Source of the DNA: Martelella mediterranea DSM 17316
GTDB taxonomy: Bacteria > Pseudomonadota > Alphaproteobacteria > Rhizobiales > Rhizobiaceae
Direction of reading: 5' to 3'
Assembly: GCF_002043005.1 (NCBI RefSeq)
Contig: NZ_CP020330.1
Span: 952,501 to 1,016,500, forward strand
Length of the DNA stretch: 64,000 nucleotides
Each line of letters starts with the position of its first letter. The first letter of the stretch is position 1. The notes under the pieces are model-generated. The model searched no databases, had not been told where the DNA came from, and was given only the letters and a program-made list of their open reading frames with translations. Below, one piece after another: positions 34,118-63,358 of the stretch. The position numbers and the translations under genes are program-made.

Positions 34118-34164
34118 GACGCCTCCTTGTGTTCGATAACTGAAGGGGAAAACGGCGTCCTGCG

Positions 34165-34252
34165 CGTCTAATCCCTCCGCCGGTGCTAGCCGGATCAGGT
34201 TCTTCGGGTTGGCTTAAAGCCTCTCAGCGAAAATCGCACCCCGTTAGAGCTG
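34165..34252 (-). promoter_or_regulatory. TPP riboswitch (THI element) upstream of thiB
   Basis: Read on the minus strand it contains the conserved blocks in order: ACGGGGTGC, GCTGAGAGG, ACCCGAAGAACCTGATC and GCTAGCACCGGCGGAGGGA. These form the pyrimidine- and pyrophosphate-binding helices of the THI element. It ends about 50 bp before the thiB start, so it probably acts on translation or on early termination of thiBPQ. Confidence 0.95.
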
Positions 34253-34480
34253 ACCAAACACCTATCGCGGCGTACCCGGCATTTCAAGAGGCGCGCGATT
34301 TGAAAAAATGGCCCGGAAGCATTAGGTAAAGGCGTGTCCGGCCTGCCGGACGAAAAGTCGGTCGTCATGCGAAATAAAGCGTGTCGGCTCATCCTTCAGG
34401 GGCGAAAGCACTCTGGAAAACCGGAAACGGCGCGGCCGATCTCGGCCAGCGTGCAGTGTTTCAAGGAAGGAGCACACGAG

Positions 34481-60581: not shown

Positions 60582-60609
60582 AAAAAAAAGGCCCCGGAAA
60601 ACCGGGGCC
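60582..60609 (-). terminator. Terminator of the small secreted-protein cluster
   Basis: GGCCCCGG and CCGGGGCC pair around a four-base loop, followed on the minus strand by eight T. It lies about 95 bp after the last of four small genes. Confidence 0.9.
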
Positions 60610-60702: not shown

Positions 60703-60912
60703 TCAGTCGACGGGCTGTTGGGCCTCGTCACTGACAGTCATTCCAGCACTCTCCGCGGTGTCGAAACGCTCGGTGCTTTCAATGTCGATGCCGTCGGCGG
60801 ACACCATCATCCGCAGACCGTCCATCGGGATCGCCGCTGGCTGGAGAGCGAAGGCCGCCGGCGCGGCGGCCAGCAAAAGGACCAGGGCTGAGGGGACCGT
60901 GAACCTTGTCAT
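60703..60912 (-). CDS. Small secreted protein, divergent relative of the adjacent triplet
   Basis: A 69-residue exported protein. The start is taken at 60912 (MTRFTVPSALVLLLAAAPAAFA), since AGGAG lies 8 bases before that ATG; an ATG at 60918 is too near. The signal peptide and the next residues (LQPAAIPMDG) parallel those of the three 78-residue proteins upstream (IQPSAVPETG). The rest (SADGIDIESTERFDTAESAGMTVSDEAQQPVD) is acidic and dissimilar. Fourth gene of the cluster, before the terminator; function unknown. Confidence 0.7.
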   Translation of the reverse strand: MTRFTVPSALVLLLAAAPAAFALQPAAIPMDGLRMMVSADGIDIESTERFDTAESAGMTVSDEAQQPVD

Positions 60913-60931
60913 TGCCATTGCTCCTGGAAGA

Positions 60932-60957
60932 GTGCGACGCCGGAAACCGGCGCGCAC
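60932..60957. repeat. Spacer hairpin between small genes 3 and 4
   Basis: GTGCG and CGCCGG pair with CCGGCG and CGCAC around an AAA loop, with a single bulged A at 60937. It fills most of the 60-bp gap and has no T-run. It belongs to a set of hairpins found in every spacer of the cluster. Confidence 0.7.
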
Positions 60958-60972
60958 GCGTTGTTTGTTGCG

Positions 60973-61209
60973 TCAGTCGTCGCTCTGGCGAACCTGATCG
61001 ACGAGCTTCAGCGAACCGTCATCGGAAACGCGGAAGAAATTCACGTAACGGTCGCCAAACTTGTCGGTGCCATTGATCTGGACCGTGGAGCCGACCGGAG
61101 CCTTGGACAGCGTGCCGGTTTCCGGAACGGCCGAAGGCTGGATGGCGAAGGCGGCGGGGGCTGCTGCGAGGGCGGCAACGAGCGCTGCGGTTGCTGTGAA
61201 CTTGTTCAT
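60973..61209 (-). CDS. Small secreted protein, tandem paralog 3
   Basis: A 78-residue protein with a signal peptide (MNKFTATAALVAALAAAPAAFA). The mature part of about 56 residues is IQPSAVPETGTLSKAPVGSTV, then NGTDKFGDRYVNFFRVSDDG and LVDQVRQSDD. It has no Cys and no known motif; the pattern of short strands suggests a small beta protein. It differs from paralog 2 at about 4 of 78 positions and from paralog 1 at about 7. AAGGAGTATTCACA precedes the ATG. I do not recognise the family; it is probably periplasmic or secreted. Confidence 0.85.
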   Translation of the reverse strand: MNKFTATAALVAALAAAPAAFAIQPSAVPETGTLSKAPVGSTVQINGTDKFGDRYVNFFRVSDDGSLKLVDQVRQSDD

Positions 61210-61240
61210 TGTGAATACTCCTTGGGTATTTTTATGCGGA

Positions 61241-61256
61241 GCGCCTCTTTCGGCGC
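61241..61256. repeat. Spacer hairpin between small genes 2 and 3
   Basis: GCGCC and GGCGC pair around TCTTTC. A second small stem (GCGGT/ACCGC, 61273-61289) lies beside it in the same 82-bp spacer. Neither has a T-run on the minus strand. Confidence 0.6.
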
Positions 61257-61291
61257 ATTATCATTATTGTTTGCGGTGGGTACTACCGCTT

Positions 61292-61528
61292 TCAGTCGTC
61301 GCTCTGGCGAACCTGATCTACGAGCTTCAGCGAGCCGTCATCGGAAACGCGGAAGAAATTCACGTAACGGTCGCCAAACTTGTCGGTGGCGTTGATCTGG
61401 ACCGTCGAGCCGACCGGGGCCTTGGAAAGCGTGCCGGTTTCCGGAACGGCCGAAGGCTGGATGGCGAAAGCGGCGGGGGCTGCTGCGAGAGCGGCGACGA
61501 GCGCCGTGGCTGCTGCGAACTTGTTCAT
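61292..61528 (-). CDS. Small secreted protein, tandem paralog 2
   Basis: A 78-residue copy starting MNKFAAATALVAALAAAP. The mature part is nearly the same as in paralog 3, with NATDKFGDRYVN in place of NGTDKFGDRYVN. The near identity at the protein and DNA level shows recent duplication or gene conversion. TAAGGAATATTTTACA precedes the ATG. Confidence 0.85.
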   Translation of the reverse strand: MNKFAAATALVAALAAAPAAFAIQPSAVPETGTLSKAPVGSTVQINATDKFGDRYVNFFRVSDDGSLKLVDQVRQSDD

Positions 61529-61554
61529 TGTAAAATATTCCTTAGATATGTGGG

Positions 61555-61586
61555 CGATGGGTGCGCTGGTGCCAGCGCGCCCATCG
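61555..61586. repeat. Spacer hairpin between small genes 1 and 2, 14-bp stem
   Basis: CGATGGG-GCGCTGG pairs with CCAGCGC-CCCATCG around TG, with one mismatch (T62/G79) in the stem. It takes up about half of the 67-bp spacer. Without a T-run, it is more likely an RNA-processing or stability element than a terminator. Confidence 0.75.
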
Positions 61587-61595
61587 CTATGTGTG

Positions 61596-61832
61596 TCAGT
61601 CGTTGCTCTGGCGAACCTGGTCGACCAGCTGCAGCGAGCCGTCTTCGGTCACGCGGAAGAAGTTGACATAGCGGTCGCCGAAATTGTCGGTGCCGTTGAT
61701 CTGGACCGTGGAGCCGACCGGGGCCTTGGAAAGCGTGCCGGTGTCCGGAACGGCGGAGGGCTGGATGGCGAAGGCCGCGGGGGCTGCTGCGAGAGCGGCG
61801 ACCAGGGCGGCGGTTGCTGCGAACTTGTTCAT
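61596..61832 (-). CDS. Small secreted protein, tandem paralog 1 (first of the cluster)
   Basis: A 78-residue copy, MNKFAATAALVAALAAAPAAFA then IQPSAVPDTGTLSKAPVGST. It is the most divergent of the three (NGTDNFGDRYVN, RVTEDGSLQLVDQ, RQSND), with mostly conservative changes (E/D, K/N, S/T, D/E, K/Q, D/N). This fits purifying selection on the fold. AAAGGAG precedes the ATG. It would be first on a minus-strand transcript from the 305-bp spacer that carries two palindromes. Confidence 0.85.
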   Translation of the reverse strand: MNKFAATAALVAALAAAPAAFAIQPSAVPDTGTLSKAPVGSTVQINGTDNFGDRYVNFFRVTEDGSLQLVDQVRQSND

Positions 61833-61884
61833 GATGAAACTCCTTTGATCATCATTGTGTCGTTTGATGACTGGGAGATGGGTT

Positions 61885-61900
61885 TTAATCAGTTGATTAA
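61885..61900. promoter_or_regulatory. Palindrome upstream of the small-protein cluster, site 1
   Basis: TTAATCAGTTGATTAA has perfect 7-base arms around GT, 53 bp before the first small gene. It shares its arms with the site at 62018, so one dimeric regulator may bind both. Confidence 0.6.
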
Positions 61901-62017
61901 CAAGTCTTCATTTTAGAACCGCAGCGTCGTTTTTTTGTTGACGACCCACTCCGAAGTCTTTGATGCCACTCCATTTTTCAGAACGAAACTGCCTGAGCAG
62001 CGCGACGAATCGCATTA

Positions 62018-62033
62018 TAAATCAATTGATTAA
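62018..62033. promoter_or_regulatory. Palindrome upstream of the small-protein cluster, site 2
   Basis: The core AATCAATTGATT (62020-62031) is a perfect palindrome. With flanks it reads T-AATCA-TTGATT-A, very like site 1. It lies between the small-protein cluster and the tal terminator, 133 bp from site 1. Confidence 0.55.
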
Positions 62034-62137: not shown

Positions 62138-63094
62138 TCAGGCGTCGAGCTTTTCCGCCACCAGCGTGCGCAATTTTCCGAGGTCCTTGGCGAAATTGCG
62201 GATGCCTTCGGCGAGCTTTTCGGTCGCCATCGGGTCCTCGTTCATCATCCAGCGGAAGGTTTTTTCGTCCATGTCGACCTTGTCTTCGGCCTCGAACACA
62301 TCGGGCGTGAGCTTGCGTTCCAGCTTGCCCTCGTCAGCGGCGAGTTCTTCCAGCAGGTTCGGCGCGATCGTCAGCCGGTCGCAGCCTGCAAGGCCTTCGA
62401 TTTCGCCGGTATTGCGGAACGAAGCGCCCATGACCACGGTCTTGATGCCGTTGGCCTTGTAGTAATTGTAGATCGAACGGACCGACAGCACGCCCGGATC
62501 GGTCTCCGACGTGTAGGTCTCGCCGGTGTCCTTCTTGTACCAGTCGAGGATGCGGCCGACGAAGGGCGAGATCAGGAAGGCGCCGGCATCGGCGCAGGCA
62601 ATCGCCTGGCACTTGGCGAACAGCAGCGTCAGATTGCAGTCGATGCCTTCCTTCTGCAGGACTTCACAGGCGCGGATGCCTTCCCAGGTCGAGGCGAGCT
62701 TGATCAGGATGCGTTCGCGTCCGATGCCGCGCTCGTCATAGGCCTTGATGATCTCGCGCGCCTTGGCAATCGAAGCATCGGTATCAAAGGACAGGTCGGC
62801 ATCCACTTCGGTGGAGACCCGGCCGGGGACCAGCTTGACCAGCGCAGCACCCACATCGATGGCAAGCCGGCTGGCGACGGCTGCAACGACGTCATCCTTG
62901 GCGCCGCCCTGCTCCTTGCCCCACTTGATCGCCTCGGCGAAGGCGTCGTCGAACATGTCGGTGGACAGCGCCTTCAGCACGATCGAGGGATTGGTGGTGC
63001 AATCGACCGGTTTCAGTTTCTCGACAGCGCGGATATCGCCGGTATCGGCAACGACCGTGGTCATCTCGCGCAATTGATCTAGCTTGGAAGCCAT
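62138..63094 (-). CDS. tal: Transaldolase
   Basis: A 318-residue enzyme of the pentose phosphate pathway that moves a three-carbon unit between sedoheptulose 7-phosphate and glyceraldehyde 3-phosphate. The Schiff-base Lys is in RILIKLASTWEGIRA (about residue 132). Other marks are VADTGDIRAVEKLKPVDCTTNPSIVLKA near the start and CNLTLLFAKCQAIACADAGAFLISPFVGRILDWYK. The length is that of TalB-type enzymes. The start MASKLDQLREM has AAGGAAGG upstream; an in-frame ATG at 63103 and longer ones are less likely. Confidence 0.96.
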   Translation of the reverse strand: MASKLDQLREMTTVVADTGDIRAVEKLKPVDCTTNPSIVLKALSTDMFDDAFAEAIKWGKEQGGAKDDVVAAVASRLAIDVGAALVKLVPGRVSTEVDADLSFDTDASIAKAREIIKAYDERGIGRERILIKLASTWEGIRACEVLQKEGIDCNLTLLFAKCQAIACADAGAFLISPFVGRILDWYKKDTGETYTSETDPGVLSVRSIYNYYKANGIKTVVMGASFRNTGEIEGLAGCDRLTIAPNLLEELAADEGKLERKLTPDVFEAEDKVDMDEKTFRWMMNEDPMATEKLAEGIRNFAKDLGKLRTLVAEKLDA

Positions 63095-63358
63095 TTTCCT
63101 CATCCTTCCTTCTATGGCCGGGCCCGAAGGCCAGCCGCAATCCTGTTCCGCCGAAGCCGTCGCGGCGCTCCCGCGATGATAGCGGGTCGCGGTGATGCGT
63201 TCATGACTGTTCGCAGACATCGGCCCGCCATGCAAGGGCGGCGGTTTCCCGGCGACTATCGCAAGCCGGGCTTTTCAAAGTCAAGAAAGGATATGGAAAC
63301 GAAGGGCCGAAACGGCAACCGGTTCGGCTGGAATATCCGTTTTGGTCAAGCGCGGCGC

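Follow-up and report, generated by a model that had tools for sequence, protein, structure and literature searches.

A tandem array of small exported proteins in Martelella mediterranea and its possible role at the outer envelope

A cluster of small genes lies near one end of a stretch of DNA of 64,000 nucleotides (nt) from Martelella mediterranea DSM 17316, the whole of which is called the window here. An earlier reading of the letters (the original prediction) had described three 78-residue open reading frames (ORFs) in a row, followed by a divergent fourth gene, and this layout is confirmed. On the minus strand, a transaldolase gene with a terminator-like hairpin comes first, followed by the promoter, copies 1-3 in turn and gene 4, and a second hairpin of the terminator-like kind closes the array (Table 1). 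A repeat search finds three direct-repeat units of 243 nt at copies 1-3, with start-to-start distances of 319 and 304 nt. The copies had been described as alike at 71-74 of 78 positions; the near-identity holds, but the range is slightly wider (69 identical residues between copies 1 and 2, 71 between copies 1 and 3, and 74 between copies 2 and 3). The predicted signal peptide is borne out for each copy by reading the sequence, which shows a leader with APAAFA at its end and then 56 residues. The mature copies are small and acidic, with an isoelectric point (pI) of 4.4-4.7. Gene 4, as had been claimed, resembles the copies only in the signal peptide and the few residues after it, and the core KAPVGS motif is absent from it.

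Copies 1-3 are real genes under purifying selection. In the mature part, the synonymous and nonsynonymous divergences (dS and dN) are 0.37 and 0.057 for pair 1-2, 0.45 and 0.049 for pair 1-3, and 0.16 and 0.008 for pair 2-3, and the corresponding dN/dS ratios of 0.16, 0.11 and 0.05 show that the protein sequence is maintained between copies, as had been suspected. The ratio is below 1 in 99% of 1191 pairs of array members (those with dS between 0.1 and 1.5), with a median of 0.45 because many of these pairs are old paralogues. For gene 4, compared with the corresponding gene of the nearest genome, the ratio is 0.13, based on 14 changes. Codon adaptation, for which the reference consisted of 13 ribosomal or translation ORFs (mean 0.70), is 0.76, 0.67 and 0.68 for copies 1, 2 and 3 and 0.84, 0.73 and 0.75 for their mature parts; all of these figures are rough, because the copies and gene 4 are short genes. 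The 21 window ORFs retained from 41 by a filter on third-position GC content (GC3) average 0.59, and 0, 4 and 3 of them exceed copies 1, 2 and 3, respectively, while gene 4, at 0.40, is lower than all 21. The codon usage of copies 1-3 is near the level of ribosomal proteins, which fits high expression.

The family is present in all 13 Martelella genomes (G000 to G012), and at an expectation value (E) near 1e-3 in 2 of 48 other genomes of the same search. The array is not a chance occurrence, because every genome of the genus carries the family. Comparison of the cluster size across relatives, which had been proposed, gives 2-6 core copies in the main arrays: 3, 3, 3, 6, 4, 5, 2, 5, 3, 3, 3, 3 and 3 for G000 to G012, omitting the gene-4-like genes of G000, G001 and G004. 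Besides its main array, genome G007 carries two smaller ones, with 3 and 2 copies. Of 16 array stretches examined, three (the window, L044 and L047) have a gene-4-like gene at the array end. The transaldolase gene is located just upstream of the main array in 12 of the 13 genomes; no such gene was found in the stretch from G012 or next to the two extra arrays of G007. In a tree built on few alignment columns, positions 1 and 2 each group across species in one clade, in which position 3 is unresolved. The genome of the window also has a single divergent family member of 86 residues (L096 1501-1761, C1:2079005-2079262; E 3.9e-5 with a mixed profile). A Martelella-type array was found in record NZ_JAQOMR010000001.1 (L010), labelled Marinicella sp. 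W31, where the adjoining transaldolase is 86% identical to that of the window; the organism name of this record looks wrong.

Twelve array promoters, from 11 genomes of the genus and record L010, were picked for having both a box and a dyad, and were compared. A block GTCAAY...RACGCNNCGG is common to the twelve, weaker in L010, L046 and L057. Also common to them are the box CTTGTT and, in the promoter spacer, the dyad TTRATCRNNYGATTAA, from which L010 and L057 differ at one position. The exact dyad is absent from the main arrays of G005 and G007. The arrangement CTTGTT-N17-TATATC of L057 resembles the sigma-70 consensus of Rhizobium etli, cTTGAc-N16-cnATAA, as given in PMC4167512. A 5' stem-loop in the leader is plausible from the alignment, in which 98.6% of cells pair in 10 leaders.

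Table 1. Features of the array and its surroundings (positions in the window)
Feature	Position	Strand	Description	Basis or remark
Copy 1	61596..61832	-	78 residues: signal peptide and 56-residue mature part	ORF, dN/dS, codon usage
Copy 2	61292..61528	-	78 residues	ORF, dN/dS, codon usage
Copy 3	60973..61209	-	78 residues	ORF, dN/dS, codon usage
Gene 4	60703..60912	-	69 residues from inner ATG; 71 residues from ATG ending at 60918	divergent
Transaldolase gene	62138..63100	-	upstream neighbour of array, same strand	
Hairpin, copy 1/copy 2 spacer	61554..61587	-		
Hairpin, copy 2/copy 3 spacer	61241..61256	-		
Hairpin, copy 3/gene 4 spacer	60932..60957	-		
Terminator-like hairpin 3' of gene 4	60590..60609	-	eight G-C pairs and T run	
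Dyad TTAATCAACTGATTAA	61885..61900	-	promoter spacer, probable operator	
CTTGTT, putative -35 box	61899..61904	-		conservation and inference
CCATCT, putative -10 box	61876-61881	-	17 nt on from CTTGTT	
Conserved upstream block GTCAAC ... GACGCTGCGG	61916..61945	-	possible activator site	
Possible 5' stem-loop of leader	61848..61871	-		pairing kept, covariation not significant
Second dyad copy	62018..62033	-	further upstream	one mismatch

The dyad has a characteristic company. It is found twice in the window at up to two mismatches, versus 0.05 expected, and its exact form occupies 23 positions in the 13 Martelella genomes, of which 16 precede array genes, 2 stray family genes (L066 and L076) and 5 other genes. 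Outside the family, it precedes orthologous genes for a beta-barrel outer-membrane protein in three genomes, G000, G001 and G004 (OMP_b-brl, E 2.7e-16 to 9e-19), and the gene for a PagL lipid A 3-O-deacylase in G012 (E 3.1e-13), and in G003 a PAP2 phosphatase gene (E 2.1e-23) lies about 0.2 kb downstream of it. Four exact dyads occur in four of 60 genomes of other Rhizobiaceae genera. One of them falls within a reading frame and one has no ORF start nearby; the other two separate a TetR-like gene from another gene and a sensor-like gene from a fumarase-like one (gene names by eye). Away from arrays there are thus 7 dyads in 13 Martelella genomes versus 4 in 60 others, counts unadjusted for base composition. 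The genome of the window has 13 near-dyad positions at up to one mismatch; all 13 loci were inspected, and none is convincing apart from the array and outer-membrane gene sites. At L103, a one-mismatch dyad is followed at about 0.2 kb by a long exported ORF, autotransporter-like by eye and with no Pfam match.

The dyad is probably the operator of a putative regulator, and its location between the promoter boxes suggests that this regulator is probably a repressor. The IHF consensus, WATCAANNNNTTR, fits the window site and not L046, L047 and L049, where the dyad symmetry persists, and IHF was rejected. BetI was also rejected: a near-match at L100, between BetI-like and ChoX-like genes (by eye), is inside a different, longer inverted repeat. 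The stray family genes at L066 (G007) and L076 (G005), each with an exact dyad, are divergent from a TetR-like gene (by eye). This gene is only a weak candidate for the regulator, because a GTAC-rich repeat also lies between the two genes. The LdtR site, given as ATATTCCTTGTATTTTAA in PMC5481520, is unlike the dyad, and LdtR was rejected as well. For ChvI, the accessible text of PMC3687685 describes an 11-bp motif and ropB1 binding; it does not give the letters of the motif.

The original prediction could not place the mature part in any known family. No described family was matched, but the protein is not an orphan: judged by sequence likeness, copies 1-3 belong to an undescribed Rhizobiaceae family of small, often lipid-anchored exported proteins. 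Of 8000 candidates scored with a profile of ten diverse members, 451 match at E up to 0.01, and 120 of the matches were listed. Among 120 listed proteins from this search and another, 64 have a GSITY-type motif and the other 56 are from Martelella or metagenomic relatives; a regular expression finds a lipobox in 50 of the 64 versus 1 of the 56. Because the lipobox is frequent and yet not universal in GSITY-type members, it does not define the family. Copies 1-3, which have no cysteine, lack it, and a profile of the lipoprotein type nevertheless retrieves them over the mature part, at E 1.8e-9 to 4.3e-10. The Rhizobiaceae proteins with EPIPGSITYGGQPRTKLTKAPVGS and ETYxIQPDRSLKLV share with the Martelella copies a core of KAPVGS, G and Y-x-V/I-x-x-D-x-S-L, and both groups have a signal sequence, a length of 75-100 residues and a profile match. 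Most of the former also have the lipobox and an extra GSITYGGQPRTKL stretch, both of which the Martelella copies lack.

At E up to 1e-5 the family is matched in 33 of 199 Rhizobiaceae genomes (three of the 33 are Martelella) and in 19 of 109 genera. An order-wide search with the mixed profile matched 7 of 249 genomes; the single matches at E 0.001-0.01 outside the genome of the window and two Rhizobiaceae genomes are probably due to chance. One family member, WP_041937032.1, is annotated as hypothetical and lies near treZ and malQ on pRL12 of Rhizobium johnstonii 3841. A search of plasmid records gave 158 matches for one lipoprotein member and no match for copy 1. In another Rhizobiaceae genus, four family genes of the GSLN type stand in tandem (L139, G320:C1:1751379-1752520), and amplification therefore arose more than once or is old. 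At L086 (G267), a long protein that is SPOR-like by eye weakly matches the end of the profile (VETFVVRPDGT), probably through a short common hairpin.

Some of the wider-family genes may be linked to stress control. Of 43 distinct genes, 12, several of them near-orthologues, have in the 300 nt before them an EcfG-like site (GGAAC-N15-18-NGTT), the motif of R. etli EcfG1 according to PMC3892343. In 200 shuffling runs the number of such genes averages 0.71 and reaches 3 at most, the reverse strand gives 1, and background windows give 74 of 1732. The site is at -49 to -91 in nine of the 12 genes, and the strict CGTT form is present in 3 of the 43. The Martelella copies differ in lacking this site and in belonging to arrays under the apparent control of the dyad.

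Structure prediction, another of the checks proposed, gives a three-stranded beta meander (AlphaFold2; predicted local distance difference test score, pLDDT, 93.4) in which no helix covers a sheet face. The antiparallel meander is in common with PepSY and cystatin-like folds, to which the source names of homologues and the top structural rows also point. Among 100 aligned members there is no match to a relevant Pfam or NCBIfam family, and no solved structure in the PDB is related by sequence; the strong match to a characterised family that the original prediction had allowed for was thus found in none of these searches. No paper on the array was found in searches of open-access literature.

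Our preferred reading, which we hold tentatively at a probability of roughly 0.45, is that the array makes an abundant soluble periplasmic protein, kin to a family of lipoproteins, that probably maintains or protects the outer envelope under changed make-up or stress. It builds on the computed selection, spread and promoter conservation, and on the company of the dyad, which points to the envelope because the site recurs before outer-membrane or PAP2 genes. The abundant structural, inhibitory or signalling role that had been proposed survives in part: codon usage and promoter conservation fit high expression, but the regulatory company points to the envelope and not to inhibition or signalling. 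We infer abundance, repression, mRNA protection and molecular action along the following lines. An envelope signal would cause the putative dyad-binding repressor, probably specific to the genus, to release the promoter, the stem-loops could protect the mRNA, and signal peptidase I would free the protein, whose periplasmic dosage would be raised by tandem duplication. The three-stranded sheet, with no helix over a face, might then pack against itself or against an envelope partner. With the lipobox gone, a protein once bound to the membrane would have become free to diffuse, and its amount would then come from the number of genes.

Several results weigh against this envelope reading. The non-family targets with an exact dyad amount to only three independent cases, and the weak NCBIfam matches of the PAP2 protein, to undecaprenyl-diphosphate phosphatases, leave its substrate putative. 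A simple E. coli-type promoter scan finds no promoter at the array, and the single two-sided change in the 5' stem-loop is reached by 79 of 500 shuffles. Gene 4 shares neither the core nor the codon bias of copies 1-3. The wider family has no conserved neighbour, the largest flank cluster covering 4 of the 30 loci given. Finally, no EcfG-like site precedes L096 or any of 22 first genes from Martelella, and the arrays therefore do not share in the stress link of the wider family; if that link is real, control has changed in Martelella.

A more elaborate version of the envelope reading has a small chance of being right as a whole. In Martelella, an outer-membrane lipoprotein would have lost its lipid anchor and, by amplification, become a soluble factor of the periplasm with tuned dosage. 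A single regulator specific to the genus would have this factor act in concert with changes in outer-membrane protein and lipid A, and the whole would be a system of envelope maintenance that has not been described.

It is unlikely that the copy number is mostly a by-product of unequal recombination, one functional gene being enough. The variation from 2 to 6 copies, the nearly unchanged spacers in some duplications and the lineage-specific copies in trees agree with such an origin, but there are at least two copies in all 13 genomes of the genus, purifying selection acts on all of copies 1-3, and at 7 loci a second box and dyad provide copy 2 with a promoter of its own. Small, exported, multicopy proteins might also act outside the cell, as enzyme blockers, as weapons against rivals or as cues, and the top structural rows include cystatin beta-sheets and a bacteriocin (laterosporulin); the regulatory company described above makes such a secreted inhibitor, toxin or signal distinctly improbable. 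A periplasmic ligand or metal binder, with its amount setting the buffering capacity, is just as doubtful: the high dosage and the low pI of a small periplasmic protein would suit it, but the mature copies have neither cysteine nor histidine, their conserved residues are mostly P, G, S and L with one K and one D, and the array includes no transporter.

DUF1471 (YhcN/BhsA/McbA) proteins are small periplasmic proteins of enterobacteria, with several stress-linked paralogues per genome, and the array proteins may work like them as small periplasmic paralogues, a likeness with no Pfam match behind it. That the array proteins are divergent members of DUF1471, PepSY or DUF5666 is very improbable: weak McbA model matches occur in 16 of the 100 members (best E 0.017) and PepSY or DUF5666 appears in some source names, but copies 1 and 3 score 14.1 and 12.8 bits against the curated DUF1471/McbA model (cut-off 110), in matches that begin inside the signal peptide, and no PepSY, DUF5666 or DUF1471 model is among the 18 Pfam families that match any of the 100 members at E up to 1.

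Elsewhere in the window, a thiamine pyrophosphate (TPP) riboswitch scores above its gathering score at 34155-34253 on the minus strand.

The analysis brings to light a protein family of the Rhizobiaceae, a group of symbionts and of soil and marine bacteria, that is absent from Pfam and NCBIfam. The envelope reading gives this family a likely setting at the outer envelope, and the dyad defines a small regulon that is directly testable. The Martelella arrays may also exemplify an exchange of lipid anchoring for soluble export and gene dosage.
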